DNA from: Ischnura elegans
Taxonomy: Eukaryota; Arthropoda; Insecta; Odonata; Coenagrionidae
DNA length: 64,000 bases
Reading direction: 5' to 3'
Assembly (NCBI RefSeq): GCF_921293095.1
Contig: NC_060248.1
Coordinates: 75,895,243-75,959,242, forward strand
The notes beneath the pieces are model-generated. The model was given only the letters and a program-made list of their open reading frames with translations. It was not told the DNA's origin and did not search any database. The position numbers and the translations under genes are program-made. Of this stretch, positions 14,662 through 61,621 are shown one piece after another. How positions within the stretch are numbered: position 1 is the stretch's first letter; each line of letters opens with the position of its first letter.

Positions 14662-16053
14662 TTATTCCCCAGTTCCACCAATCAAACAAAATGATGAAAT
14701 TTTGAAAGTTTTTTTTTCTTCGGCCTGATACACTTCAATTTCTGTATCACCATTACACTCATCATTGACAAAAATATTTGCAATGTAGTTCTCTTCTGAC
14801 TCAGTCTCTAAATAGTACACATCATTTTCCACTAAGGCATTGAACAAAACATCACCGTCATCATGCTCTCCAATCGCTTCATTCAATCTAAACACGGTCT
14901 GAACACCTTTCTTCGCCAGCTGTCTGACAGACACAAGATTTACATTCAACTCAGGTACCCACAGTGCATTTGTAATGACAAAGTCCAGCCCCCACAAGAG
15001 TTTTTAACTTAATTACGATAGTTCCCTTCCCCTTCACGGTCAGACGTCCCTTTCCAATCTTTACTTCTCCGGTGGCAGGTTGGAAATCAATGAAGCGGTG
15101 ACGGTCTGGCGTCATGTGGTTTGAAGCACATGAATCTAGATAACTAACCTTTTGTCTTTGGGATCAAGTCAAAGCAAACGCAGAGATGAGTCCTTTGAAC
15201 TTCGGCTTGTCCCCCCCTTTCTCGTGTCTCTCCCGTGTCTCCTCGTCTTTTCCTTTCCTTTCCTCCGACTTCTTGTCTCCCCTTGGCGCACCACACTGAT
15301 AGGAAATGTGGCCCCACTTTCCACACCTGTAACATTTTTGATCACCGGTGCTCCTCTGCTTTACACTATCTTTGTTGTTGGCTGTTCTCGTCCTGCTGAA
15401 CTTCCTCGCTGCCAATGCACTGCCATGTTCAGATGACTCAGCAGCATTAATTCTTCTCTCCTCAAGCAGAAGGTCTGATTTCACCACCCTCAAAGTCAGT
15501 TCTCATCAATCTTCATAATTCTTACATAAGTCGAATAATGTGGATCTTTCACAAGTCCCGCCAATATAAAAGAAGCCACAATGTAATCTTGGAACACGAT
15601 ACCGTTTTTTGTTAATTTTCCACAGAGCCCCTGTATCTTCCCAGTGTACGCTGAGATGTCCATCGACTCGGTCTTCTCAATGCTGCCCAGCTCTCGGAGA
15701 CACATAGACGTATGAGATGACACATCCATTGATGCAGCTCTACCATGAGTTTCTTCTAACGTGTCCCAACACTCCTTGGCGGACCTTAAATGACTGATAT
15801 CCGCAATGTACTCCGGGCGCACATGTCGGTAAATGTATGCGCGAGCCTTATTGTCTTTACGCACATTTTCCAGTTTCATCAAATCAACAGGACTCAGTCC
15901 CGGGTTGATTGCGTCCCAGCAGTTTATAAAGGTCAGCGACGCCTCCGACATGGTCCTCCAGTATTCATAATTCTCCTTGCTCAGAATTGGATGCATGTCA
16001 GAATCCATCAACTCATCCTGATTCGCCATGGTCTCGCCTTTTCTTATATCCAA
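14662..16053 (-). pseudogene. Copia-1 gag and protease, broken
   Basis: Gag starts at MANQDEL (ATG near 16029) or nine residues upstream, and has the UBN2-type capsid body (YEYWRTMSEASLTFI, then AKECWDTLEETHGR). A frameshift near 15494 leads to a nucleic-acid-binding part with one CCHC knuckle, CYRCGKWGHISYQC. After another break comes the retropepsin entry LDSCASNHMTPDRH, where Copia proteins usually have LDSGAS-HM; the Gly-to-Cys change at the active loop would disturb the enzyme. A last frame has the ALWVPELNVNLVSVRQLAKK block. At least three breaks make it non-functional. Confidence 0.75.
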
Positions 16054-16094
16054 TTTATCGAATAACTAGCGTCTACAACCACACAGCACGATTC

Positions 16095-16108: not shown

Positions 16109-16187
16109 TATTGTCTAGGATTTATGGCAGCGGCAATGAGACTCACACAGAGTTAGTTCAACAAATATATTCAGATAAGACAAAGAT

Positions 16188-17723
16188 TTGGATATTTCGA
16201 GACTGATTAAAACTTCGAGGTCAGAAATTTTCGGCAACATTAGAAAAATGAGAAAAAATAAGTCAGTGGGACCCGACGGAGTTTCTATCGATTTATTGAA
16301 ATTGGGTGGTTTGGCCGTTTCAAATTACATATACCATTTATTCAATGTTACAATGAACAACAATGCCTTACCAAGTGACTGGAAGAAGGCCAGAGTAATA
16401 CCAATATTCAAAGGTGGAGATAAAGATCTAGTGGAAAATTATAGACCGGTAAGCCTAACTTCTGTAGTATGCAAATTGTTAGAAAAGATCATTGCAAATT
16501 ACCTTTGGAATAAATGGGAATGCGAGAATTGGTTGTATAACCGCCAACATGGATATAGAAAAGGCCACTCACCTGAAACCCAACTGTTAGGGTTTTGCCA
16601 TGAAATTGCCGACTTAATAGATGCGGGAAAAGAATTAGACGCGGTAATAGTAGATTTTTCTAAGGCCTTTAATAAAGTTGATCACGAACGGCTTATGCTT
16701 AAGATGAGGCAGTTGCCAATGGAAACAGATGGAAGAGTCATCTTGTGGATCGATGAATTCCTCCAGGGCAGGACGCAAAGAGTTAAGGTAGGGGATGAAT
16801 GCTCAGAGACAGCGAGGGTAACGTCCGGTGTTCCTCAAGGAAGCGTCTTAGGACCTTTATTGTTTTTAGTGTACCTAAATGACCTCCCGGAAAAAATAAA
16901 TTCTAATATAAGGCTTTTTGCGGATGACTGTATTATTTATAGGAAAATAGAAAATAAAATTGATCAGGAAAGTCTTCAGGATGACTTAAACAAATTAATG
17001 GATTGGGTATCTAGTAACGGGATGGAAATAAATCCAAATAAATGCAAATATGTTAACTTCAGCAAAAGAAGGAAATGCGTAAGTAGAAATTATGAATTTT
17101 CGGGTAGTTGAATTCCAAAATCTAACAGCTTTAAATATTTAGGAGTCCATTTATCAAAGAATTTGGGGTGGGGTTTAAACGTCGAGCACACGACCAAAAA
17201 ATCTTTTAAAATATTGCACTGGGTGATGAGAAACCTCAGAGGAAGCACCAGAGCCACGAAAGAAATGGCCTATACAACTCTAGTACGACCCACTTTAGAG
17301 TACGCATCTCTTGTTTGGGACCCTCATTTCAAAGGAGAGGTCAAGAAATTGGAGAAGGTGCAGAGAAAAGCTGCTAGGTATGTTTTGGGAAAGCATAAAA
17401 AAACGGAAAGTGTTTCAGAAATGCTCGGAGTTCTAAGGTGGGAGAGTTTACAAGAGAGGAGGAAAAGAAGCAGGCTATGTGGCATGTTTAAAATTATGAG
17501 TGGGGAAAAAGCATGGAAAGAATTTGGGAAGGACATATCAAAACCCAGCTTTGTTGGTAAAAACGATCACCAGTTCAAGATAAAGTGCCGATCACAAAGG
17601 ACAAATGCGAAGCAGTTCTCCTTCTTAAATAGGACCATAAGGGACTGGAACGACCTACCAGCAGAACTATTTGAGTCCTTCCCGAAATATTTACATAGTT
17701 TTAAAAAGCGGCTGAAGAAGTAG
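16188..17723 (+). pseudogene. CR1-like reverse transcriptase, one in-frame stop
   Basis: ORF2 fragment of about 511 codons. Reverse-transcriptase motifs run in order: KSVGPDGVSIDLLK, VIPIFKGGDKDLVENYRPVS, AVIVDFSKAF, SGVPQGSVLGPLLFLVYLND, the catalytic LFADDCIIY, KCKYVNF, and FKYLGVHLS. The C-terminal part (PTLEYASLVWDPH, RKAARYVLG, FLNRTIRDWNDLP) matches the conserved tail of CR1/L2-type elements. One TGA at 17109-17111 interrupts an otherwise open frame; all catalytic residues are present. The missing 5' half makes it immobile, but the low damage suggests a fairly young insertion. Confidence 0.8.
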
Positions 17724-31260: not shown

Positions 31261-34200
31261 CCACTCATCTGGGTGTTTAAATTTCCCATGTCCAACCTAC
31301 AGTGGGTATTTAATTTTACACTGAACTTTAAGTTTTATTTTGGCAGTAAGAAGATTAAGCACAAACGTTTCATTATTTTTTTCACTATAGTATTAATATT
31401 TTCAGTATTCGTTTGAAATGTTGAACATTTGTGGATTAAAAATTAATTTTAATGATAAACATTAATTGTTTAAAAAAGCTACAAAGGGTAAGACCAGAAT
31501 TATTCGTACAAGTGATGAATACATTCGCATAGAATGAATATTAACAATTTTTGTAAACATAGTGGTAGCAGAATGTTTAGAAAAATGTAAACAAGTATAT
31601 TACGATGTTCGAAAATTTTTCATATCAAGGGGCAATGTAGACAACCACACCTTACACATATTTTTTTTACTCTTTCCTCTTCTATGGTAAAAATTTTTCA
31701 ATGATTACAATGCTTCATCTCTAATCAAAAAACACTTCACACTTTACATTAATATCAAATAAACGTTACAAAAAATGAAACTGTTTGAAGTATAAACGAA
31801 GAAAAATGAAATTATAAATAAATGGTTAGGTAAATCATGACCATTGCTTCAAATTAGCTCCGCATCTATTTTTATAGTGCATCTGTCTTACAAAAGAACA
31901 TTTTTTTTTAATTTAATGAATATATATTTGTATAAATAATTTTGAACATGACATAATCTGAAGCATGGAGCAGGGCACAAGCCAACAGAACAATCTGGAC
32001 ACCAATATTTTGTTTCCTTCCCTTTCCCCTCTTTGAAGCCAACAACACATCTTTTTGTGGGGCACTTTTTGGTTGTTGGGGGAACAGCATCAGGAAAATG
32101 TCTCTCGGTAAGGCGAGAAGGCTTAGGGGATTTAGAGGGCCTTCCCTGGGGTGCTTGGGCATCTACTCCATACTTTGCAATCAGAATTTCAGCAAGCGAG
32201 ATTAGAAAATCTTTTCGACTCAATTTTCCCTTGTTCTTTTTGTAAATCGCATAGGCATTCAACATTGCCATGTCCAACAAGTGCCGAAATTTTTTTTGAT
32301 AGTATTTCTTTGGTCGATTTCTGGCAATTTGGTACATATTCATGAGTCCATCGCTTCCATCAACGCCTCCCATGTTTTTGTTATAGTCTTGTACCGCAAT
32401 TGGTTTCACAAATTTTTTACCCCATTTTTCAGTTTCGGACATTTCAGTTCCATGAAACGTGCTCACCATTATCACGTCTCTTTTGTCCTTCCATTTCATC
32501 ACCACCTGTTTCCCACGAAAATCCGCCACCATTTCTCCTTTCTTCAATTTGGCAGATTTTACGGATTGAGGAAACTCCTTTCTATTTGACACCATCGTCC
32601 CAACCACATCCGTTCTATTCTCGGATAACTTGTCCACTAATCTAGGGCTAGTGTACCAATTGTCTACATATATAGTATGCCCCTTACCTAGAAGGTCATC
32701 GGATAAATCAAGTACGATCCTGGCGGTGATATTTTCTCCTTCATATTTGTCAGAATACATTGTGTCCTTTCCCGTATAAATAAAAAAATTCCAAATGTAG
32801 CCTGACTCACTTTCACAAAGCACAAAAAATTTTATACCAAATTTACTCCGCTTTGATGGAATGTACTGCTTCCAAGAGAGTCTACCCTTCCACATCAGAA
32901 GAGATTCATCAACAACAATAGCCTGATTGGGCGAGTAAATTGATGAAAATTTATTTTTCAAGTACTGTAGCACTGGTTCAATTTTAAAAATTTTTCTATT
33001 GCTGACATCAGCATTGAAAGTTTTGTTGTCCACAAAATGTAAAAATTTCAGAAGGAGAAGGAACCGTTTTTCACTAAAAACTTTAGAAAAAAAGGGAGTT
33101 GCGATGCTTTCTCTTTTAGTAAAATACATCGCATAATCGGTTTCAGTACAATACCCTGTAGAATAAAAACTCCTAGTAACACTCTTATTTCATTCACAGT
33201 TGTCTCAACCCAACTCCGTGCCCATAGATCGCGGCTTCAGGTTAATATTTGCCGCAAGGAATTGCTGAGCATAAATATTTGTCTGCTCCATTATTATCGA
33301 GCACAGATTCTCATCCACAAATAATTCAAAGCATTGTAGGATGTCATCCCCAACCTCAACATCCACATTCAATTCAGATTTACCTGAGAAACTGAACTTC
33401 TCTCGCACTACCTCTCGTTCACTCCAAACGTAAGGATACCCAGGTTGATTGGTAACCTCCTCCTCCAAAAGATCGTCGTCTTCATCACTCTCGCTATCAC
33501 TAATATCAGTGTTTACGTAATCGTCATCCAAATACTCAGAGGCACTTTCATCTTCGCTCTCTTCCAAAATGTTTATAATTTCTTCTGCACTTGGTTCTGA
33601 TCGTTTTCTTTTACTAGATGAAGCCATATTAGAATATGTGTGCACACCTTATGGAAATTATTCTTATTCTAAAAGCGAGAGCACTTCAAAACATTTATCG
33701 AAAAACTCACTTATTATTCATACTAGAAATCCCCAAAACCGCGGAACACTTTCCACTCCGAAGCTCAAGGGAAAACTGAGGGCAACTTAGGTAGCTAAAA
33801 ATTCTAAACCAGTTACTCCGCTCACATAGAATAATCGAGCAGACTGCGAAGGATTACAAGGGTAAAGAAACAATAATGCCTTTAGAAAAAAACACACTGC
33901 AGAGTAGAGAAGAGCACGGAATAAAATGAGTCTTTCTTGTGGCTTATGCTGTCGAGATAGCATAAAATTTACTTGCCAAGGAAAGAGGCAGCATTTGTAT
34001 AAAAGTAAAAGATTCTAACACGCTCCTTGCCGCCGTATTTTCGACCAATTCACCCACTGCGGCGCCGCTTCAGTCATTATGACCGACGCAGAGGAGACTT
34101 ATCTAGAGAGAAGGCTGGATTACAATGCATAATCTCTCAGTTTGAAAACTTCATTCTCAGATGGTTGCACTTGCCAGCTAATTGTATTCACACCACTTTG

Positions 34201-42018: not shown

Positions 42019-42030
42019 CAATGCATTACT
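42019..42030 (+). repeat. 12-bp target-site duplication of the Penelope-like element, left
   Basis: CAATGCATTACT at 42019-42030 is repeated exactly at 44183-44194, on the outer side of the Penelope-like element. Both copies encode the same residues of Gypsy A (SNAL), as expected if one site was duplicated. Confidence 0.85.
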
Positions 42031-42083
42031 TGAGTGAAGTCCTCTCGAGATTTCCACCGGTTGATTTGATTTATAGGCACCAA

Positions 42084-42116
42084 CGTTTCAATGAGCGCCT
42101 CGTTCATCGTCATCAG
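42084..42116 (-). ncRNA. Hammerhead ribozyme motif in the left Penelope terminal repeat
   Basis: Minus strand: ACC, then the core CTGATGA, an 8-bp helix II arm pair (GATGAACG / CGCTCATT, loop AGG), then GAAACGTT with the minimal ACGT helix III and cleavage after GTT, then GGT pairing with ACC as helix I; ATTT and AAAT extend helix I after an internal loop. This is the type I hammerhead form known from Penelope-like elements. One helix II pair is mismatched (A/C). Confidence 0.65.
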
Positions 42117-42146
42117 GGTAAATAATAAATTTTTACTGATTAAAGA

Positions 42147-43931
42147 ATGTTTATAAGTAACTATAAACAAATTTATTTAGATTATGTCGGTGGAATAGAA
42201 AATGCTATTCGTAAACTTCCGGATGATTTGGCCGAAGAAGTGAGGGTCGAAGTTTCCTATGTTTTAAGTCGGGCCGTCCCACCAAAACCTAATATATCCA
42301 GAGAGGAACGATCTGCCATCAGAGCCCTTCGAGGGAACGAGGAGGTTACTATCTTGCCAGCAGACAAGGGGAACGCCACCGTAATCTTAAAAACCGAAGA
42401 TTATCGTAATAAAATACGTGATATTCTAGAAGACCAGGCTTACCGGAAACTGCATAGAGACCCCACAGAAGCGGTAACAAGAAAGACGATTTCCCTCATC
42501 AAGAAGTCCGGTTTAGCACCTGAAGAAGCAAAGAATCTACAACCTGATGCTCCGGCTCCCCCTAGGCTTTATGGACTGCCCAAAATCCATAAAAAAGGAG
42601 TGCCGTTAAGACCGATAGTGAGTTCTATCGCTTCGCCCACCTATAACTTGGCTAAATATTTAACATGGCTCCTTTCTCCGTATGTTGGGCTTGGTGAACA
42701 CCATGTCAAAAACTCGGCCGAGTTTGTGAATATCCTGGGTGATATTAAAGTGAAAGATACGGACATTTTGGTCAGCTTGGATGTTGTGTCCCTTTTTACT
42801 CGAGTGCCACTCGTTGACACCATTGAGTTGCTGCAGAATATTTTTGATGACAACACGGTGAAACTATTCCATCACGTACTGACGTCAACTTATTTCAAAT
42901 ATGACCAGGAATTTTTCGAGCAGACGGACGGAGTTCCTATGGGATCCCCTCTATCTCCAGCCATTGCAAATTTTTATATGGAACATTTTGAAGAAAAGGC
43001 ACTCTCCACAGCTCCGCTACGCCCAAGGTATTTTTTCCGATATGTGGATGATACCTTCCTAATTTGGCCTCATGGGTCTGAGGCTTTAATGAAGTTTTTA
43101 GAACATATGAATAATCAACATAAAAACATTCAGTTTACTATGGAAAAAGAAATAAACGGCAAGATTCCTTTCCTCGATATCTTGATCCACCGGAAGAGTA
43201 ATGGTTGCCTGGGACATAGCGTGTATCGCAAGCCGACGCACACGGATCTGTATCTGAATGCTCGCAGCCATCACCACCCTTCTCACAGAGCGGCGGTACT
43301 TTCTACCGTAGTACATCGTGCCAAAGCCATCGCGGACACGGAAAGTCTTCCAGATGAGATGAGATATTTGAAGAGAACATTCCGGCAAAATGGATACAGT
43401 GACCGACAGATCACTTTGGCCATGAAAAGAACTTTTAACGAAAATTTGTCGGGTGGGAAAGAAGAGTCTAAGCCTGAGGCCAGGGCCGTTCTGCCATATA
43501 TGTCGACAGTATCTACTAAGATCTCGAACATTCTCAAAAGATACAATATAGAGACAACACATAAACCTATTAGTAAACTGAGGGACCAATTAGTGAAGGC
43601 AAAAGACCCCGTTGGCCTAATGACACCTGGCGTCTACCAGATTTCCTGTGAATGTGGCCAAATCTACGTGGGGGAGACTGGTAGAACGATAGCCACCAGG
43701 ATTAAGGAGCATCGGAGGCATTTCAGACTTGGACAGCCTGATAAGTCTGCTGTGGCTGAACATAGCATTAATAGGGATCACCAAATTAAATGGGATAGCG
43801 CCAAATTAATCTGCCGTTCCAACAACTTCTGGGACAGGCTCGCTAAGGAGGCCATTGAAATTAGGCTTAATAACAATAATATCAATAGGGACACTGGATA
43901 CAAAATTAGCAATGCGTGGAATCCCATTTGA
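42147..43931 (+). CDS. Penelope-like reverse transcriptase with GIY-YIG endonuclease
   Basis: An intact 594-codon frame. Reverse transcriptase: ILPADKGNATVIL (65-80), YGLPKIHKKGVPLRPIVSS (142-160), VSLDVVSLFTRVP (first catalytic Asp, near 212), DGVPMGSPLSPAIANFYME (261-280), and the catalytic FRYVDDTFLIW (YVDD 299-302). Connector: KIPFLDILIHR and YRKPTHTDLYLN. Endonuclease: GVYQISCECGQIYVG (495-509, the GIY-YIG pair with a Cys cluster), then RTIATRIKEHRRHF with the Arg and His, and AEHSINRDH. Length is at the short end but plausible for Penelope enzymes, which use the nicked DNA end to prime reverse transcription. The first residues overlap the left terminal repeat. No break is seen; it could be active. 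Confidence 0.9.
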   Translation: MFISNYKQIYLDYVGGIENAIRKLPDDLAEEVRVEVSYVLSRAVPPKPNISREERSAIRALRGNEEVTILPADKGNATVILKTEDYRNKIRDILEDQAYRKLHRDPTEAVTRKTISLIKKSGLAPEEAKNLQPDAPAPPRLYGLPKIHKKGVPLRPIVSSIASPTYNLAKYLTWLLSPYVGLGEHHVKNSAEFVNILGDIKVKDTDILVSLDVVSLFTRVPLVDTIELLQNIFDDNTVKLFHHVLTSTYFKYDQEFFEQTDGVPMGSPLSPAIANFYMEHFEEKALSTAPLRPRYFFRYVDDTFLIWPHGSEALMKFLEHMNNQHKNIQFTMEKEINGKIPFLDILIHRKSNGCLGHSVYRKPTHTDLYLNARSHHHPSHRAAVLSTVVHRAKAIADTESLPDEMRYLKRTFRQNGYSDRQITLAMKRTFNENLSGGKEESKPEARAVLPYMSTVSTKISNILKRYNIETTHKPISKLRDQLVKAKDPVGLMTPGVYQISCECGQIYVGETGRTIATRIKEHRRHFRLGQPDKSAVAEHSINRDHQIKWDSAKLICRSNNFWDRLAKEAIEIRLNNNNINRDTGYKISNAWNPI

Positions 43932-44070
43932 AAGAAAATTAAAAATCATAGAACCCCACCGTTTCATAAAAATTCAGATTTTTCCGGCCGATCAGGGGTA
44001 ACTTAATTGTTGCAATTTGTTTATAGTTACTTATAAACATTCTTTAATCAGTAAAAATTTATTATTTACC

Positions 44071-44103
44071 CTGAGGACGATGAACGAGGCGTTCATTGAA
44101 ACG
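44071..44103 (+). ncRNA. Hammerhead ribozyme motif in the right Penelope terminal repeat
   Basis: Plus strand copy: core CTGAGGA (position 7 is free in hammerheads), helix II GATGAACG / CGTTCATT fully paired with one wobble, then GAAACGTT. Helix I ACC/GGT is kept. Being in the opposite orientation to the left copy, it would act on transcripts of the same strand as the ORF. Confidence 0.65.
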
Positions 44104-44182
44104 TTGGTGCCTATAAATCAAATCAACCGGTGGAAATCCCGAGAGGACTTCACTCAATTAATACGCCGGGAAAGAATCTCAT

Positions 44183-44194
44183 CAATGCATTACT
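44183..44194 (+). repeat. 12-bp target-site duplication of the Penelope-like element, right
   Basis: Exact copy of 42019-42030 (CAATGCATTACT). Confidence 0.85.
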
Positions 44195-49920: not shown

Positions 49921-50280
49921 TCACTGTGGTTTTTTCCGAAGGAACTGCACTCTGATTCGTTCATTGGAACAGACTTCTACAACTTTTCCCACAAAAAACC
50001 TGTCACGCTTATCCGTCTCAAACTTAATCAAGAGGAATGAATTTTTAGGAATAGAGCCGGGAATTTCAAAATGACTTTCCTTAGATATATTATTATTTTC
50101 CGAGGCCAAAGAAAAAGAAGCACCTGCAGATGAATTCCCCCCCGGTGAAACTTCTTCCATTTCTTCAACTAATGAACCTTTCATGCACTCAGCGCTAACA
50201 CTTTTCCCCGGCTGAACATGAAGCCTTTTCCCCCTTGATTTTTTTCTACATTTAATTCGACACGAGATGATGCAAGCCAT
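49921..50280 (-). pseudogene. C-terminal tail of the pogo transposase in a shifted frame
   Basis: The next frame over carries KKSRGKRLHVQPGKSVS, an acidic Ser/Gly linker, and SFLLIKFETDKRDRFFVGKV then RIRVQFLRKKPQ. Pogo- and jerky-type proteins often have such a basic GK-x(2)-PGKS segment and an SH3-like tail, so this is the natural continuation of the main frame, which ends out of frame at 50181. A one-base slip near 50250-50280 explains it. Confidence 0.55.
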
Positions 50281-51542
50281 TGCAAAAATGCATCTGACCA
50301 TGCGATGCCTCCGGCGGAATTGACCGAATTTTTTTCCGGATTCAAAGAAGGAACTTTGTTTATTACTCGACTTTTGTCGAATGGGAAAATTCCTGCAGCT
50401 CTAAATCCAGCACGAACGTTGCCAGACAGGGAAGGTCCAATTGAGTCGAAGGCAGATTTCAATAATCTCGGAAACTCACTTTTAGGAAGAACTCCATGAT
50501 TTTTACGCTTCCACCCATCAAGACATTTGCGCCATGCGATTTTAAGTGGCCTAAAAAAAGCAAGGTCGAGAGGCTGGCATAAATGGGTTGCATTAGGAGG
50601 GAGCATTACAAAATTTATTCCCATCACTTCGCACAGCCTAATTACCTCTAAGGAGAGGTGACTGGAAAGATTGTCTCCTATCAAAACTTTTGGCCCCAGC
50701 CTATTTTTGAAAAATGGCACGCACGTTGTAGTGAACCAGTCTTCGAAGGATGCAATGTCAAACCATCCGCTGCTATTTCGGTTAAACCTTGATCCTTCAA
50801 TTCCACCTTCTACCCAAGTTGGATATAAGTGTACAGCTTTGTACACTGTGTACGGTGGAAGCAATTCTCCGCTTGCTGATGCTGCGATCATCACAGAAAC
50901 ACTTGTTTTGCTAGTGTCCTTGATGACTGATGGGTGTTTCTCTCCCCTCCTAACAATCACGCGAGATTTTCCAGGATCGTCACTAAAATTCGTTTCGTCG
51001 TAATTAACGATGTTTTCTGGAGGAACACCATCCAAAACCATCTCCAAATTATTAAAATAATTTAGAAGCATTTCTCTAGTCACTGATGCACGGACCCTTT
51101 TAATGTTTTCACCGAGTCGCACTGTAAGTTCTCTCCGTCTCGCCATGAAACCCCGCACCCATTCCATTCCCGGACAGTTATCTTTAAACTTTTTTTCTTT
51201 CCGTCCCACCCTATTTAAATAATCCTTTACCACTAACTGGAGGTCAATTGGACGTAAAGGAATCCCCCACTCTGCACATTTCAGAATCCCTTGGGTCAGC
51301 TGGTCCTCTTCTTCGCTTGATAGCACCGTTTGTCCCCCAGACTTTTTCGGGTGATTTCCTTTGAGTCTATCGTGGACTGTTGACTTTGGGACTCCAAATT
51401 CTTTGCACGCAGTGCGTAGCGTCATGCGTCCACATTTTACGGCCTCAATTGCCTTTTCAAGTTGCCGCTCATCATGCACGCGGAAGCGCCGGCCTCCAAT
51501 CACCCTCACGTAGTTTCGCACCATTTCGCCCGCGAGCTGCAT
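50181..51542 (-). CDS. pogo-type transposase, catalytic core intact
   Basis: A 453-codon frame. Residues 22-62 are a Psq/CENP-B-type helix-turn-helix (RQLEKAIEAVKCGRMTLRTA, GVPKSTVHDRLKG) that binds element ends. A second, CENP-B-like helical region follows (LVVKDYLNRVGRK, PGMEWVRGFMARR). The DDE core has all three acids: NYDETNFSDD (D182), VLIGDNLSSH (D290) and CQPLDLAFF (D326), a DD35D spacing typical for pogo. The frame ends with an out-of-frame tail that replaces the normal C-terminus (see 49921-50280), which may or may not abolish activity. This is among the least damaged DNA transposons here. Confidence 0.9.
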   Translation of the reverse strand: MQLAGEMVRNYVRVIGGRRFRVHDERQLEKAIEAVKCGRMTLRTACKEFGVPKSTVHDRLKGNHPKKSGGQTVLSSEEEDQLTQGILKCAEWGIPLRPIDLQLVVKDYLNRVGRKEKKFKDNCPGMEWVRGFMARRRELTVRLGENIKRVRASVTREMLLNYFNNLEMVLDGVPPENIVNYDETNFSDDPGKSRVIVRRGEKHPSVIKDTSKTSVSVMIAASASGELLPPYTVYKAVHLYPTWVEGGIEGSRFNRNSSGWFDIASFEDWFTTTCVPFFKNRLGPKVLIGDNLSSHLSLEVIRLCEVMGINFVMLPPNATHLCQPLDLAFFRPLKIAWRKCLDGWKRKNHGVLPKSEFPRLLKSAFDSIGPSLSGNVRAGFRAAGIFPFDKSRVINKVPSLNPEKNSVNSAGGIAWSDAFLQWLASSRVELNVEKNQGGKGFMFSRGKVLALSA

Positions 51543-52295
51543 GAAATCGAATAATGCGTTCTAGTAAATACAGTATTCATGATATTTAAATGAAATTTGT
51601 TGTATGTTATGTGAAGCTATGCAGCTTCAAAAGGTAATTAATCTCATGAAAATCGGAAGCACTTACCAAACAGCAAAGTAGTTTCTTTTCGGCGATAAGA
51701 AGTTACCCAAACTGTTGCGCCGACAAACGAATCGGTTTGACTACGGCGAGGAGCATCAGATCCGCTGCATTTATACGCAATACGCTACATTGGATCATTT
51801 TCCGTCTGGGAGACATAACTTCACTGTATAACAATGTGACTTTCGGAAGAAAACAATGTATGTATGGGCCGGCGCGATCGTCCGAACTCGCCCCGCATGT
51901 CCGAACTCTCCCCGCATGTCCGAACTCTCCCCGCATGCCCGAACTCGCCCCAACTTACGGTATGGGCCGGAGTTCAATACCCCACTTCGGCCCTGGATTC
52001 CCCGAAAAACGGGCGGCCGAGAAGAGCCCAGCTCGGTCAATCGGCTCCTGGCGGCTCCTTACGAGCGTACGCCAGGACGGGTTGGTGCTGGAGATATGGG
52101 GGTCTCCGTAGGGCGGCCGAAGGCGTGTGGGTTCGGAGGGCCCCCGCGCTGGTTCTCACCCGAAAGAGACCCCCTTTTGAAGGTTCCTATGTCCCTTGGG
52201 TAGCCCTGGCGACCACACCGGATCTCGGTGTGGCGTCCCGAATGTGTGGCTCCGTGGTGGGTGGGGAGCCCAGGGGATGAATTTTGTATGTGTGT

Positions 52296-53486: not shown

Positions 53487-53546
53487 GTCTCCCTCTAGCC
53501 CAGCAACCCAGTTTTAGTTTATTTATTTAACTTATTCCCTATTTTA

Positions 53547-54380
53547 ATGGCTTTTATCATACAGTGGAACTGTAATGGTTTTTTCCGACACAGGGATGAG
53601 CTTACCATTTTAATTCGTGATTTTAACCCTAGTTGTGTTTGTCTCCAAGAGACGCATTTTAAAGCTTCAGAGAAAGGAATTTTAAAGGATTTTAATGTTT
53701 TTAGACACGACGACACCAGTGGTCAAAGAGCCAAGGGTGGAGTGGCAATTGCTATTCGGGAGACCCTTTACACCTCCCAATTGCACTTGACCACTCCATT
53801 TCAAGCAGTAGCGGTGACAATCCATGCTCCGGAGACTATAACGTTATGCAACGTTTACCTACCGGAGGGTGCGCCGGTCACGCGATGCAACTTGGAGAAC
53901 CTTACCCGCCAACTACCTAAGCCCTTTATATTGCTTGGAGATTTTAACGCGCATGACGCCTTGTGGGGTAGCACAAGGACCCAGCAAAACTAGCGAGGAA
54001 GAATTTTGTCTAATTTTACTATAGATTCTAACCTTATTTTATTGAACACCGAGGAAAACACGTTTTAACAGTTTTAATGGTGAGTACTCCTCCATAGACC
54101 TTTGCATCTTATCAAGCAGTCTTAAAACGAAGACTAGCGTGGCTGTGCACGACGGCCTATGTGGGAGCGATCACTTTCCGCTTTTAATTACAAAAGACCT
54201 CTGTGTAAATGACAATTTTAATCGACCGGTTACCTGGCTTCCCCGTAAAGCTGACTGAGACTATTTTAAAGAATGTTTTAAATACTTGCACAATACTGAT
54301 CGGGACGCTGTACAAAACATGGGGCTCTTAACTTCGGCCATCATAGAAGCTGCAAATGTAAGTGTACCGCGATCTCGAGG
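53547..54380 (+). pseudogene. ORF2 endonuclease domain of I-like copy A, broken
   Basis: An APE-type endonuclease that would nick the target. MAFIIQWNCNGFFRHRDEL (N), VCLQETHFK (catalytic Glu), RAKGGVAIAIRE, ILLGDFNAHDALWGS (D and N) are present; the frame stops at 53991. Pieces further on include SSIDLCIL and GSDHFPLL (the SDH motif) with stops and shifts, then AANVSVPRSRG up to the inserted array at 54381. Confidence 0.8.
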
Positions 54381-54459
54381 TATATATATATATATTTTTT
54401 TTAATATCACGAGATGTGGGTCAAATGTAAATATTATTTATTTTTTCAAACTTTGCCTA

Positions 54460-54490
54460 CGTTTCGGACATTATATTTGTCCATCCTCAG
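54460..54490 (-). ncRNA. Hammerhead ribozyme motif, array unit 1
   Basis: Minus strand: GCC, core CTGAGGA, helix II GGACA / TGTCC with loop AATATAA, GAAACGTA (minimal ACGT helix III, cleavage after GTA), GGC pairing with GCC as helix I; AACT and AGTT extend helix I beyond an internal loop. All core positions are as in type I hammerheads. Confidence 0.7.
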
Positions 54491-54721
54491 GGCTTTTACT
54501 TTAGTTGTGATATCTATTTCCGGACTTAGATCTCCCATATTCCTCTTGCTTGGCGTAGTCCTTCCTGTTGAAAATGGTTTTCAATCTCTTCTGATTTAAC
54601 TCTCCTCTGGCATGAAATCTCCTTTTTTCTGGGTGAAGTGAATTGATGAACAACTGGACAGCTTCTCTTACTTGTATAATTCAAACTTTATACTTCACGA
54701 CCCCTTATTATATATATATAT

Positions 54722-55803
54722 TGTGACATACCGACCATATGTCACGTATTTTCTCTCGTTATGTAATGACCCGAGTAGGGGATGATCACATATATGTATG
54801 GATGAGCGTGGGTATGTCTGAGTGTGTGCGTAATAGTGTGTCATGCCCCGGGCATGAGGTACAAGTGACTCACAAATGTTCAGTGTTTGGTCAGCTCGGA
54901 CCGGTGGTTGCCCCACCCAACAGTGAGGCCCAAGTGTAACCCCTCTTGTCCCAAAAAACCCATCCCCTGTGTATCATCCCCCTCCAATATCACTATAAAG
55001 CGGCGGACGGAGAGAGCCTCCTGGCGAGAAATGCTAGTTTGGTCGACGGGCGAGAAACGCTATCCTGATCGACGGAGAAAGGGATTGATGACGTGACAGA
55101 TTGGTCGTCATTTTTCTGGGTGTACCCAAAGAGTGCTGTTAGCGGGACGAGATTGTCTACGGAGGTAGCCAGCAGCGGAGAGCAAGATTGCAGACGAGCG
55201 ACAGGCAGGACCAACGCCCAGAGGTCGGGAGGAAAACAGCCCCCGATCCCACGGACATTTGGGGTCCAACGTGTCGCATCATCGACGGCTCCTACTGCTC
55301 AAGGCTCCGACGAAACCGTAAGAACGTCGCAGTCAGCGACCCGTCCCCGTGCTCGTTCGCCCAGACCCGATTTAATCCCCAAACTGTGTAGCCAAAATAT
55401 TTGGGTTCTTTCTCTCTATCCCGGTGCGCCGTATCTAATCACCAAACTGTTGACTCCTTGTCAGAAATCTGACTCAGTGTTACCACGAGAGCAGCCTAAA
55501 AAAACTTAATTTGGGCAAATTGTAAACTCGGCCCACGAATTCTACCAATCACAAATTGTTGCTTATTTGTATTTCTTTTGGAGGGGGGGCAATTGAACCA
55601 TATCATCTTGTGCACTTTTCGTTCACCTCATTCTCATCAGGGTATTTAATTTCGATAAGTGTGTGTGTATGCTATGTCTGAAGTGGAAAATATATTTTTT
55701 TTATGTCTCAAAGTACTCAATAATCGTTCGATCATTCCGTACTCGGGACCATTGATGCCCTCCCCACCCAGTAAAATAGGTGGCGTTTTCATGTTCCGCC
55801 ACA
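54722..55803 (-). mobile_element. LTR-like block 1 (1082 bp) in a TA tract
   Basis: Lies between (TA)n tracts and has TGT...ACA ends (TGTGACATACC at the left, CCGCCACA at the right). Read on the minus strand it is a diverged homologue of block 2: both have a shared GGGGGAG...CGAG region and TATATTTT(A/C)C, and both have ACCCTGATGA at 175 bp from the end nearest the central TA tract. No coding region was recognised. Probably a solo LTR, or the end of another retroelement. Confidence 0.5.
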
Positions 55804-55817
55804 ATATATATATATAT

Positions 55818-56857
55818 TGTGACCGGACGCGTCGTCACATACGTGATTTGGGGGGAGATAATCACGATCGTCTCGAGCAAAGGAATACTGGAGTCAAACA
55901 AATCATCATTCACTCTTAAACATACAAGATATATTTTACCCTTCATGAATTATTACATTTTTCACAAAACAAAACAATAAGAATAATACCCTGATGAGGA
56001 TGATATGATTGAAATGATTCCACTTCGGAACAAAATAATGACGATGATGATATCGTGATGCTTCCCACCCTCCAAAATAGTACAAGTTACAATACAACAA
56101 CAAAAATCTAATGTGAATTATTTGGGCCACCATCAACTTGTATCCTTGGATAAAGTTTTTTTTTCTCTCTCTTTGAACTTGGCTTTTCTGAGCACTTCTT
56201 AAAGTTATTTGAAAGGAAGCGATGCACTATGATCTTGGAGAAAACAATTTCTCTCTTCTGATTAGGGGAAATTAACGGTCGTCTGACCATAAACAGATGA
56301 TATAAGAACTTTCTTACAGTTTTCTGTTGAGGCTGGAACGGAGAAATGGTTTGTAGCACAAGAAGGTGGATCAGCTGATCCACGGAACCGAGGTAACTCC
56401 TGTCGCACCGGGCGTGGGACACTGCCGTAACTCGTCCGGGCTGATGCCAGCGTTGGCCACCAAAAATACTCCGCTCTCAGCTATGATGGCGATCACGCAC
56501 ATCAAAAACTTTCCCCTAAGTCGTCCAGTCAATTATGCTCGCGACGCCTTCCCTTCACGGGCATTTATACTCCTCGGGAGGGGAAAAATCACAGGTGGAA
56601 ATGGTTGTGGGGAGGGAGGGTGATTTCACTGGGGCCGGAAATAAATGGGTCACTAGCTGGTCCTAGATAACTGGGGCCAACACACCGGCCACCATACACA
56701 TGACTCATTCACTCTCTCACATACACACGTCGCAGGACGCTATGTCCGACCCCAAGACTAACCCCTGCTCGAGTCGTCACGGTAGTGTGAGCAAAAACAA
56801 AAAATGCCCATTCGGCAATTATAATTAGAAAAAATACTTTCTGTACGGTTCGCTACA
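55818..56857 (+). mobile_element. LTR-like block 2 (1040 bp) in a TA tract
   Basis: TGTGACCGGAC at the left and CGGTTCGCTACA at the right, again between AT tracts (55804-55817 and 56858-56870). It is inverted relative to block 1. It contains ACCCTGATGA at about 55987, as in block 1. There is no coding region. A (TA)n target preference, as in some Gypsy groups, would explain both positions. Confidence 0.5.
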
Positions 56858-56934
56858 ATATATATATATATTTTTTTTATATCACGAGATGTGGGTCAAA
56901 TGTAAATATTATTTATTTTTTCAAACTTTGCCTA

Positions 56935-56965
56935 CGTTTCTGACATTATATTTGTCCATCCTCAG
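56935..56965 (-). ncRNA. Hammerhead ribozyme motif, array unit 2
   Basis: As unit 1, but helix II has one change (TGTCA for TGTCC next to GAAACG), which breaks one closing pair. Core CTGAGGA and GAAACG are kept. Confidence 0.6.
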
Positions 56966-57182
56966 GGCTTTTACTTTAGTTGTGATATCTATTTCCGGAC
57001 TTTGATCTCCCATATTCCTCTTGCTTGGCGTAGTCCTTCCTGTTGAAAATGGTTTTCAATCTCTTCTGATTTAATTCTCCTCTGGCATGAAATCTCCTTT
57101 TTTTTCTGGGTGAAGTGAATTGATGAACAACTGGACAGCTTCTCTTCCTTGTATAATTCAAACTTTATACTTCACGACCCCT

Positions 57183-57185
<3 letters not shown>

Positions 57186-57258
<73 letters not shown>
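57186..57258. repeat. (TA)n microsatellite
   Basis: A 70-bp TA dinucleotide run with two interruptions, between array units 2 and 3. Confidence 0.9.
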
Positions 57259-57268
<10 letters not shown>

Positions 57269-57325
57269 TATATCACGAGATGTGGGTCAAATGTAAATAT
57301 TATTTATTTTTTCAAACTTTGCCTA

Positions 57326-57356
57326 CGTTTCGGACATTATATTTGTCCATCCTCAG
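57326..57356 (-). ncRNA. Hammerhead ribozyme motif, array unit 3
   Basis: Identical in core and helices to unit 1. It is 391 bp from the motif of unit 2, giving the unit length of the array. Confidence 0.7.
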
Positions 57357-57890
57357 GGCTTTTACTTTAGTTGTGATATCTATTTCCGGACTTAGATCTC
57401 CCATATTCCTCTTGCTTGGCGTAGTCCTTCCTGTTGAAAATAGTTTTCAATCTCTTCTGATTTAACTCTCCTCTGGCATGAAATCTCCTTTTTTTCTTCT
57501 CTTTTTTTTCTTTTTTTTCTCTGGGTGAAGTGAATTGATGAACAACTGGACAGCTTCTCTTCCTTGTGTAATTCAAACTTTATACTTCACGACCCCTTAT
57601 TATGTATATATTTTTTTTTATATCACGAGATGTGGGTCAAATGTAAATATTATTTATTTTTTCAAACTTTTCCTACGTTTCGGACATTATATTTGTTTGA
57701 ATTATACAAGGAAGAGAAGCTGTCCAGTTGTTCATCAATTCACTTCACCCAGAAAAAAAGGAGATTTCATGCCAGAGGAGAGTTAAATCAGAAGAGATGG
57801 AAAACCATTTTCAACAGGAAGGACTACGCCAAACAAGAGGAATATGGGAGATCAAAGTCAGGAATAGATATATCAACTAAAGTAAAAGCC

Positions 57891-57921
57891 CTGAGGATGG
57901 ACAAATATAATGTCCGAAACG
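57891..57921 (+). ncRNA. Hammerhead ribozyme motif, inverted array unit
   Basis: Plus-strand copy of the same motif: CTGAGGA at 57891-57897, helix II GGACA / TGTCC, GAAACG ending at 57921. The unit is inverted against units 1-3. Confidence 0.7.
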
Positions 57922-57998
57922 TAGGCAAAGTTTGAAAAAATAAATAATATTTACATTTGACCCACATCTCGTGATATAAAATATATATATATATATTT

Positions 57999-59317
57999 AA
58001 TAAGTACCCCACAGCAACAAACTTGGCCTCTTTCCACCGCCTGCGATCCAAAGCTCGTGGTATGGTGAAAGAGGCTAAAAGGATCTCATGGATGGAATTT
58101 ATTGCAAGTGTTAACTACAAAACGCCACCTGCGCAGGTATGGCGCTAGGGCAAATCCATTTTAGCTTCGGGACAGCCTAACAACGTGTCCTACTTGAAAA
58201 TTGACGGCAATTTATTGACAACAGCGCCCGCCATTTCGGGAGATTTTGGGCAGGTCCTAGCCAACACAAGCAGCGATGATAACTTTCATGGCTCCTTTCT
58301 CCACCGTAAACGTCAACACGAAACCTCTCGCCTTTCTTTTTTAGAAGGTGATACAGATGCTCCGTACAACGACCCGTTCACCCTGTGGGAACTCACCTCC
58401 ACCATCGAAGACACCAGGAACACCTCGCCAGGGTTGGACGAGGTACATAATGCATTCCTCCGTAATATTCCGGAAAAGGCATTGGACGAAGTTCTGCTCA
58501 CTTTAAACCAACTTTGGGTTGATAGGGATTTTCCATCGTCATGGCGGGAGTCAATAGTGGTACCTATCCCTAAACAAGGAAAAGAAAAAGCTGACCCGAA
58601 TAATTACAGACCCATTTCCCTCACAAGCTGCCTAAGTAAAGTCATGGAGAGAATGATAAATCGGAGACTCATGTGGTGGCTGGACAGGCAAAAGCTTCTC
58701 TCAAACATTCAATGTGGCTTCCGCCGAGGTAGATCCACATTAGATCACCTCGTCCGTGCAGAAAGTTTTATTCAGGAAGCCTTCCTTCTTCGACAGCATG
58801 TCGTAGCAGTCTTTTTGGACCTAGAAAAGGCGTATGACAGAGTATGGCGGAGGAGAATTTTAGACAGGCTTCATGCGTGGGGTTTTAGGGGGAACTTGCC
58901 GATTTTCATTCAAAACATTTTAACCGACCAAGTTTTTAAGGTACGAACAGGAAGGCATCTCTCACAATTTTATTCACTTGACAATGGCATACCCCAGGGC
59001 TCAGTTTAATCGTGACTCTCTTCGCCATTGCTATTGACGACGTAGTCGACTGTATTCAGGAACCGGTGATGGGATCTCTATTTGTAGAAGACTTGGCGAT
59101 ATTTTGCCGTTCGTCTAGAGTTGCAACAGCAGGACGGCAGTTGCAAATTACTCTCAGCAGGCTGAACGTGTGGTCCAAGCGAAAAGGATTTCGATTCTCT
59201 GCGGAGAAAACTAAGTGTTGCATTTCCACCGTTTGCGTGGGATTCATTTCCCACCAAACCTTCGCCTGGGTAATGCTGTACTCCCTTTCGTTGAGTCATT
59301 TCGCTTCTTGGGGATGA
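57999..59317 (+). pseudogene. ORF2 reverse transcriptase of I-like copy A, broken
   Basis: Resumes after the array with NLASFHRLRSKARGM and RISWMEFIASVNYKTPP, then a stop at VWR. The reverse transcriptase body (58185-59009) has SPGLDEVHNAFLRNIP, IVVPIPKQGKEKADPNNYRP, CGFRRGRSTLDHL, VFLDLEKAYDRVW (first Asp) and GIPQGSV, where the frame breaks. In the next frame the catalytic box, usually YVDD, reads LFVEDLAIF: the second-position Asp is Glu, so polymerase activity should be lost even without the shifts. A third frame carries on at 59215. Confidence 0.85.
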
Positions 59318-60351: not shown

Positions 60352-61621
60352 TTGCCAAGGGAAAGCAAAAGTACAAAACAAATTATTTAAATGCTCACAC
60401 ACTTTTTGCGAATTTGTCCCATATGGCATTTAAGAGGCTTCAATCCACTTAGTACAGCTATCATTCACAATAAGGAAACATTTATGCTGTATTACAAAAA
60501 AATCTACATGTAACCTACGCCAAACATCAGCCATAGGCCAGGCTACATTTGCCGAACAATCTGGTCTAAAATTTGAAATCTGGCACTGTTCATAGTTACG
60601 GACCATATCTTCAATATCCCTATTCATGTTTGGCCACCAAAAAACTGAGCGAGCTAAAGCTTTCATTCTCACAATGTACCAGGATGGGAATCGTGCAATA
60701 ATCTCAAAATTGACTCCAGCAGGGATTTAGGAAGAATTACCCTGGTACCCATAGGAAGACAGCCATTTTCCAATGAAATTTCGAACCTTCGTCGGAAAAA
60801 GGGAGCAATAGCATGATCCTCAACGAAATGTGGCCAACCTTGCTTAGTTAATTCCATAACCTTACTTAGAACTGCATCTGAGGCAGTTTCTTTAACAACT
60901 TCACTGTAGGTCAATGGAAAATTAATGGGGAGCACACTGAGTACATTTTCAACACAGTCCTCTGAGGAAATGGGGAGTCTAGAAAGGGCATCTGCAGGAC
61001 ACATTAGGGCAGACTTACGATACTCTATTTTATATTGACAAGCAGCTAGAACAATTGACCACCTTTGAAGTCTTGCAGCTTCAACAGTCAGAATTCCCTT
61101 ATCAGGAGCAAGGATATGGCGAAGGGGTTGATGGTCACTGATGAGTGTGAACTTCTGGCCATACAGGTACTTGTGGAACCTTTTAACTGCAAAGATCAGA
61201 GCTAATGCTTCCCTGTCCAACTGAGAATAGTTTTTTTGTGCAGCCGTAAGGGTACTTAATGCGAACAGCACAGGTTTTTCCACACCCTCAGTTATGTGGC
61301 TTAGAACTGCCCCTACCCCATAAGAAGACTTATCAACTGAAACCAGGATGGGGAACTTGGGGTTATAATGCACCAATAGGGAATGTCCTAAAAGTAATTT
61401 TTGCTATCTTCAAAGGTTAGGTTGCACTCCTCAGTCCATTCCCAAGAAGAATTTTTCATAGTCATATTAAACAAAGGTTTTATGACACCTGAGAGGTTAG
61501 GCAAAAGTCTATGATAGAAGTTTAACATCCTTACATAAGACCTCAGCTGAGTGACATCTTAGGGAGGTTCAGCCTTCACAATGGCATCCATTTTATATGC
61601 CATCGGTCGAACACCCTCCGC
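60340..61621 (-). pseudogene. Gypsy B RT end, RNase H and integrase start, broken
   Basis: From 61621 the connection after LGHTI continues (VRPMAYKMDAIVKAEPP), a stop and shifts follow, then RNase H: FPILVSVDKSSYGVGAVLSH (D), TLTAAQKNYSQLDREALAL (E), LISDHQPLRHIL (D), RLQRWSIVLAACQYKIEYRK, ADALSRLP. Integrase: zinc-binding LLHDSHPG and WPNMNRDIEDMV-YEQCQ, core start WRRLHVDFFVIQHKCFLIVN (first Asp) and a stop after WIEAS; near 60345 the second Asp box reads SDIG where SDNG is usual. Homology ends there. Confidence 0.8.

Follow-up and report, generated by a model that had tools for sequence, protein, structure and literature searches.

How does a genome come to hold tandem hammerhead ribozymes with no enzyme of their own, and from what are such units made? 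The question is raised by a locus in the 1.72-Gb genome of Ischnura elegans, within a stretch of 64,000 nucleotides (C3:75895243-75959242, hereafter the window, whose own numbering is used for its features). Its span 54381-57995 holds three hammerhead-like units on the minus strand (u1 to u3), one on the plus strand (u4) and a truncated piece, also on the minus strand (u4p). TA tracts lie between all of these, with the exception of the junction of u4p and u4. A first-pass annotation had described a single array of four retrozyme-like units of 350-390 bp. Three head-to-tail units, one inverted unit and TA tracts between them are indeed present, but without most of the TA tracts the units measure only 316, 318, 343 and 283 bp (u1 to u4), and ~2.1 kb of the span, although units lie on both sides of it, consists of two long terminal repeat (LTR)-like repeats that lie inside a TA tract. 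GC content of the units is 34-36%, and they differ from one another by 1.0-3.2% (gaps ignored). Our analysis suggests that the array is very probably a retrocopy of RNA from a family of Penelope-like elements (PLEs), here called F1, in which splicing had skipped the entire open reading frame (ORF).

Probable origin of the units from a Penelope-like element

Other genome copies and their flanks give F1 the order hammerhead, tail, TA tract, head, 5' untranslated region (UTR), open frame of 855-857 aa, UTR, hammerhead and tail. In one copy, searched in two pieces, the reverse transcriptase (RT) domain RVT_1 was matched at 7.1e-05 (23 bits, below the Pfam cut-off of 29.6) and GIY-YIG at 1.9e-05 (above its cut-off). 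F1 has a single ORF with RT and GIY-YIG endonuclease, as endonuclease-bearing (EN+) PLEs do, along with a hammerhead-containing pseudo-LTR, an inverted junction, a tail of 30-40 nt and a short target duplication (duplications were measured on short spliced derivatives).

Comparison of the units with F1 copies placed the loss of the ORF at an exact junction. Unspliced copies read TTTTTATAG^CCCTGAGG before the hammerhead, the hammerhead exon CCCTGAGG beginning 2 nt ahead of the hammerhead core, and AAAAG^GTTTTTAC at the start of the ORF (donor D1). In the window units D1 is joined exactly to the hammerhead exon (AAAAG^CCCTGAGG); they retain only exon 1, with no RT or endonuclease coding, and are a non-autonomous derivative. 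A second ORF donor (D2, TTAAAT^GTAAGAAAT in unspliced copies) is joined to the same exon in an array of 19 units (C12:21342308-21350891), where TTAAAT^CCCTGAGG stands at 20 of 20 hammerheads, with TTGAAT in two. Short foldback copies carry CTTAAAG^CCCTGAGG, exactly the 99-nt interval of the 3' UTR being gone (donor D3, CTTAAAG^GTAAAT...TTTATAG; 99 nt in the ten loci that matched the search pattern). One F1 acceptor is common to D1, D2 and this UTR intron donor. By their sequence, the units consist of F1 5' UTR and ORF start, linked to the hammerhead exon by a junction of spliceosomal type.

An intron of similar kind, GAG^GTATGT...CTAACATAG^CCCTGAAG, is present in a second PLE family (63% protein identity), where it measures 177-233 nt in eight records. 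Its donor, read by eye as GTTTAGAG^GTATGT, led us to predict a spliced form GTTTAGAG^CCCTGAAG, which is present at 12 of the 100 sites listed out of 306; of the remaining 88, 86 carry GTATGTCA, and the last two are variants by a single letter. Three F1 donors and one second-family donor thus show exact GT...AG removal when compared with copies that contain the intron. As a separate observation, a third PLE group (L087-L091, L093) has a strong-looking donor CAG^GTATGT, seen in L088, L090 and L091, and a hammerhead preceded by AATTAAGAG^CC, a weak acceptor; it is a possible third intron family.

Copies of the unit were found at many places in the genome, and their number is a minimum, 40 out of 668 candidates having been scored. 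The exact D1 pattern occurs at 50 sites, with no other letters at its eight variable places: 19 are spliced (seven loci) and 31 unspliced, the latter including 19 D2-spliced C12 units and four ORF-deleted sites at C8:115656421-115660484. Two further D1-spliced loci with TCTAAAG (C2:104798129 and C6:116388820) bring the total to at least nine. The D3 pattern, for which 100 of 256 sites were listed, was spliced at 15 and unspliced at 85; among the sites listed, none of the 15 spliced ones lay directly after an F1 ORF end, against 32 of the 85 unspliced ones (Fisher p = 0.002, in a test that counts inverted partners although they depend on each other and that draws on a list of only 83 F1 ORF hits). 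A tblastn search of ten locus sequences from the nine loci, with ~1.5 kb of flank, detected no PLE protein beyond the first 31 ORF residues; as far as these flanks reach, the unit copies are not attached to a Penelope ORF, whereas attachment in every case would have reduced them to terminal repeats. PLEs themselves may be very abundant in this genome: at first look a protein search yielded 19,755 loose candidates, and the 74 that were scored led to 74 listed matches. At the C8 place just mentioned (L030, L037) the ORF was deleted in another way, with CCAACTCAT now next to AAAAACAACATC, and the UTR intron is spliced; this is a non-splice deletion derivative with several copies at one place.

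Exon 1 (208 nt) links individual units to different PLE copies. Units at C11:53970475 and C6:43318363 are identical to an unspliced PLE on C4 (L038), except that one unit has a single mismatch; u1, u2 and C11:49807508 differ by 3-5 nt from copies of the L030/L031 type, and u3 by 28 positions, nearly all of them from its insertion; and C8:22495162 is 1 nt from a PLE on C15 (L032). The unit at C7:66796692 is mixed, with exon 1 nearest L032 (1 nt) and a tail of the L035/L036 flavour (five D1-spliced tails were compared). Overall, spliced units span at least three PLE subfamily flavours, which would not be expected from a single old retrozyme lineage.

The ribozyme and the intron in its outer helix

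The core GCC-CTGAGGA-T-GGACA-loop-TGTCC-GAAACGTA-GGC is shared by u1, u3 and u4; in u2 one pair of helix II is broken (TGTCA). A generic motif was found six times in the window (four in the array, two at the window PLE), whereas 200 mononucleotide shuffles held 0.01 on average and never more than 1. The four hammerhead cores noted at first are thus far above chance, but their description as complete type I ribozymes proved too strong: beyond the u2 mismatch, helix III consists of AC/GU only (2 bp) and is loopless, and one extra nucleotide stands between CTGANGA and helix II. Nor is the AACT/AGTT outer helix I ascribed to the array units predicted to form there, and the suggested Rfam comparison returned no hammerhead model for the window or a 76-nt piece, either at the gathering score or at E<=10. 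The canonical type I form with a stable helix III is accordingly not that of the window units. A further Rfam search, on the palindromic loci L040-L042, gave 64 matches, none of them to a hammerhead and most of them to microRNA models that had fitted the palindrome; all were disregarded.

For comparison we used 16 hammerheads from nine PLE groups of this genome (our own grouping). The motif used demands GAAACGT, so that the loopless AC/GU helix III is partly a product of selection. In two other sets, 4 of 12 PLE 3' pieces and, in the helix test, 1 of 12 (L098) gave no hammerhead with the motif applied there. With the extra nucleotide allowed, helix II has 4-8 pairs in 15 of the 16 (L088 is broken at the first pair), a total of 90 contiguous pairs versus 0 without it, and helix II covaries, since shuffling of partners gave a mean of 37.1 and a maximum of 66 in 2000 trials. 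Because helix II pairs with the extra nucleotide in place and covaries, the unit ribozyme is, judged from these predicted pairings, a minimal hammerhead of PLE type that has been conserved. A viroid hammerhead, too, is known to have an additional nucleotide in its core.

The F1 UTR intron lies within helix I of this ribozyme. The exon before it ends in UCAGACUU-AAAG, and the hammerhead is followed by GGC-A-AAGUUUGA; UCAGACUU and AAGUUUGA form 8 pairs in 29 of 30 distinct F1 copies and 7 in the other, the 3' strand having three variants. The intron parts the 5' strand of the outer helix from the rest, and its removal is predicted to restore the 8-bp helix, with a hammerhead-constrained energy of -16.9 spliced versus -9.7 unspliced, a value equalled by 7 of 2000 shuffled exon ends. 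The second family gains ~4 kcal/mol, but 431 of 2000 shuffles equal this, which is not significant, and the pairing of its exon end with the F1 ribozyme is better still (-14.3); with so weak a result there, the claim of helix restoration rests on F1. The D1 and D2 exon ends were also tried as builders of an outer helix I and rejected (constrained energies of -9.5 and -7.2, versus -9.5 unspliced). As D1 and D2 splices gain no outer helix in these models, the window units probably have a weaker ribozyme.

These pairings raise the idea of a splice-assembled ribozyme in F1. With the intron in helix I, genomic or unspliced RNA would lack the outer helix and stay whole as an ORF-bearing template; splicing would build UCAGACUU/AAGUUUGA and yield an RNA that cleaves; and ORF-skipping would give retrozyme-like monomers. 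We put this forward tentatively, as a proposal more doubtful than probable.

Deposition of copies and competing explanations

Many loci have two opposed arms that meet at an AT-rich or truncated junction, as in [unit<][unit<][piece<][>piece][>unit][>unit]. Often one outer end has 30-35 nt of additional head and the other a TA tract. A script called target duplications, 11-13 bp long, in 8 of the 14 loci evaluated (out of 15, L015 being left out), namely in three of seven D1-unit loci (L018, L020, L023), in five of six D3-spliced loci (L040, L041, L042, L047, L051) and not in C12 (0 of 1). By eye, L026 has an A/T-only 12-mer, L049 an A/T-only match and C12 an AAT repeat on both sides, while L016, L022 and the window array have no target duplication by script or eye. 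Median divergence between units is 0.33% within a locus (21 pairs) versus 1.95% between loci (189 pairs, gaps ignored). Full PLEs of this genome show a similar layout; for example, C1:37190435-37202788 holds three minus-strand and two plus-strand PLE copies with equal protein scores, tandem-inverted like the short units.

The purified enzyme of the Anolis Poseidon element PAc cuts and extends both target strands, an internal start leaving a 30-40-nt tail (PMC11167929), and the 30-35 nt outer extension seen here matches this tail, the RT start site of that study. Penelope of Adineta vaga is described with an inverted pseudo-LTR, a 31-bp tail and duplications of 8-10 bp, one copy sitting in a non-LTR element without duplication (PMC3846280). 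Because the layout agrees with PAc, A. vaga Penelope and the full PLEs of this genome, tandem copying of circular or multimeric RNA is plausible by analogy. The route that we favour would begin with a read-through F1 transcript spliced from D1 to the hammerhead acceptor, with removal of the whole ORF. Flanking hammerheads may then excise a ~320-nt monomer, which would be circularised, and on each of the two cut target strands PLE RT/GIY-YIG acting in trans would begin at an internal position ~30-35 nt beyond the TA tract. The template would be copied one or more times round until two truncated cDNAs met, which would leave an inverted junction. The array in the window would have landed in a non-LTR element, later received two LTR-like insertions in a TA tract, and aged (1-3% between units).

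Several points weigh against this account. Splicing, self-cleavage, circles and trans-mobilisation are all deduced from DNA only, and PLE insertion in vitro does not need the hammerhead (PMC11167929). D1 is a weak donor (AAAAG^GTTTTT), and D1, D3 and the second-family donor share "AG" with the acceptor side, so that any one of these junctions, taken singly, could have come from a deletion at 2 nt of microhomology. Four of seven D1-unit loci have no target duplication >=11 bp by script, and the window array, besides lacking a duplication, misses the outer tail at both ends and coincides with a target deletion of ~77 bp, as measured against three uninterrupted copies of the host element elsewhere (L084-L086). 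Some unit pairs from different loci are identical too, and tandem identity alone is therefore no proof of rolling-circle copying.

Loss of the ORF at the DNA or cDNA level, through microhomology deletion or RT template switching, would explain the 2-nt overlap at the D1, D3 and second-family junctions, and one non-splice ORF deletion does exist (in L030). Yet D2 has no overlap, the same junction recurs across subfamilies, and three F1 donors and one second-family donor meet one fixed acceptor per family with GT...AG ends, so we regard such internal deletions as very unlikely. An independent animal non-LTR retrozyme, with self-standing ~320-nt monomers, circular RNA and merely borrowed PLE enzymes, fits the tandem ~320-bp, 34-36% GC, ORF-less units at several loci with no PLE ORF in the flanks examined, and the units resemble the family of PMC7229834. 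Against such a lineage stand a body made of PLE 5' UTR and ORF start in at least three subfamily flavours (one identical over the 208 nt) and a ribozyme that is minimal rather than canonical and joined at GT-AG. We consider it unlikely; what survives of the retrozyme-like interpretation is ORF-less tandem units at >=9 loci with a retrozyme-like layout, and not an independent origin, the units being PLE sequence.

The alternative named in the first-pass annotation, a stack of Penelope pseudo-LTRs, here from recombination between full elements, draws on the tail, TA tract and head being the PLE terminal region and on the tandem and inverted arrays that PLEs form in this genome. It is hardly credible, because a plain stack would hold no precise D1-to-acceptor junction, and this junction of exon 1 to hammerhead exon is absent from the unspliced PLE copies read; the ORF remnant of <=31 aa and the target duplications at three of seven unit loci likewise speak against it. 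The number of tandem units is a separate matter, for which DNA-level expansion of one spliced insertion, by unequal exchange or TA-tract slippage, is a possibility that we take seriously without favouring it. C12 has 17 plus-strand and 2 minus-strand near-identical full units with some recurring minority variants, TA tracts favour exchange, and only the AAT repeat stands there in place of a clear target duplication. But three loci have identical units in their opposite arms, a single target duplication encloses each of three inverted or tandem unit loci, and C12, when considered as a higher-order satellite, shows no clear variant period or higher-order arrangement by eye.

Surroundings of the array and related systems

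Transposons make up much of the window (Table 1). The LTR-like repeats A and B (1.04-1.08 kb) have further genome copies at 97-99% identity; five of six other copies with ends read have A/T-rich flanks on both sides, and some copies are paired ~3 kb apart, which suggests an LTR element preferring TA-rich targets. The window PLE (42019-44194), nested among LTR-retrotransposon-like frames, had been taken for an active Penelope-like enzyme 10 kb from the array. It does not belong to F1, the parent family of the units, and its frame of 595 aa, compared with stop-free frames of up to 850 aa in relatives, indicates that it is probably 5'-truncated, leaving "active" unsupported.

Table 1 Features of the window, with positions in window numbering.
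Feature	Position	Strand	Remarks
Copia gag	15496-16065	-	
RVT_1 element	16179-17111	+	
DDE_Tnp_1_7 (piggyBac-type) transposase	31891-33189	-	
12-bp duplication on both sides of window PLE	42019 and 44183		CAATGCATTACT
Hammerhead beside window PLE, 5' side	42082-42116	-	Inverted
PLE open frame of another family	42144-43931	+	595 aa; Pfam: RVT_1 only
Hammerhead beside window PLE	44071-44105	+	
DDE_1 + HTH_psq transposase	50184-51560	-	
Endonuclease part of non-LTR retrotransposon hosting the array	53499-53993	+	Pfam Exo_endo_phos 5.3e-16
u1	54404-54719	-	Tail, minimal hammerhead, spliced junction, exon 1 and head of F1
u1 hammerhead core (GCC...GGC)	54455-54493	-	Splice junction AAAAG^CCCTGAGG between 54493 and 54492
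LTR-like repeat A (TGTGAC...CCACA)	54722-55803	.	Insertion in u1-u2 TA tract; outside unit
LTR-like repeat B (TGTGAC...CTACA)	55818-56857	.	Second insertion in same u1-u2 TA tract
u2	56879-57196	-	Hammerhead 56930-56968; helix II strand TGTCA where others have TGTCC
u3	57270-57612	-	Hammerhead 57321-57359; purine-rich insertion of ~25 nt
u4p	57620-57696	-	Truncated tail and part of hammerhead; inverted junction with u4
u4	57695-57977	+	Inverted; first 34 nt (head) missing; hammerhead 57888-57926; junction 57888/57889; preceded by 77-bp u4p
RT part of array-hosting non-LTR retrotransposon	58149-59009	+	RVT_1 5.6e-21
RT_RNaseH fragment	60669-61403	-	

Intron-containing PLEs were reportedly described by Arkhipova in 2003. 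F1 resembles such elements in having spliceosomal introns, and in the material consulted on them we did not meet an intron set against the ribozyme or abundant spliced retrocopies. A. vaga Penelope has a spliceosomal intron in its ORF, and the paper describing it stresses intron retention and considers an antisense template (PMC3846280), whereas F1 copies have lost introns precisely and in sense orientation. No splicing is reported for PAc in the portion consulted (PMC11167929), whereas F1 derivatives have precisely lost introns and the whole ORF. With both of these EN+ PLEs, as there described, F1 shares pseudo-LTRs, inverted junctions, an optional tail of ~30-40 nt, short or no target duplications and AT-rich targets, and with PAc it also shares a hammerhead and a tail that corresponds to an internal RT start.

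Minimal PLE/Terminon hammerheads, for which the excerpts consulted give an almost absent helix III and propose cleavage as dimers (PMC7761336, PMC6155905), are like the ribozyme found here in their near lack of helix III; the difference from those accounts is that in F1 and the second family a spliceosomal-type intron ends 2 nt before the core. Animal non-LTR retrozymes are characterised by Cervera & de la Pena 2020 (PMC7229834) as tandem units, 150-450 bp long and without an ORF, that carry a type I hammerhead, are low in GC (<45-50%) and occur at multiple loci alongside PLEs, which are proposed there as their mobiliser. The window units agree with this in being tandem, 283-343 bp long, ORF-less, low in GC (34-36%), present at multiple loci and accompanied by PLEs; unlike the retrozymes so described, they are PLE sequence with a minimal PLE hammerhead (loopless 2-bp helix III) and an ORF removed at GT-AG. 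Among the literature titles and abstract beginnings listed, which did not include the two primary PLE-hammerhead papers, we recognised no description of spliced PLE-derived hammerhead units or of an intron in a hammerhead.

These observations offer a concrete birth route for retrozyme-like hammerhead units; the literature consulted goes no further than to propose that such units are linked to PLEs. Intron retention had led to the suggestion of an antisense template in A. vaga (PMC3846280), and the spliced sense copies reported here suggest that sense RNA is copied at least part of the time. We also propose a testable link between splicing and ribozyme assembly: if the F1 ribozyme were indeed assembled by splicing, PLEs would be a continuing source of new retrozymes.

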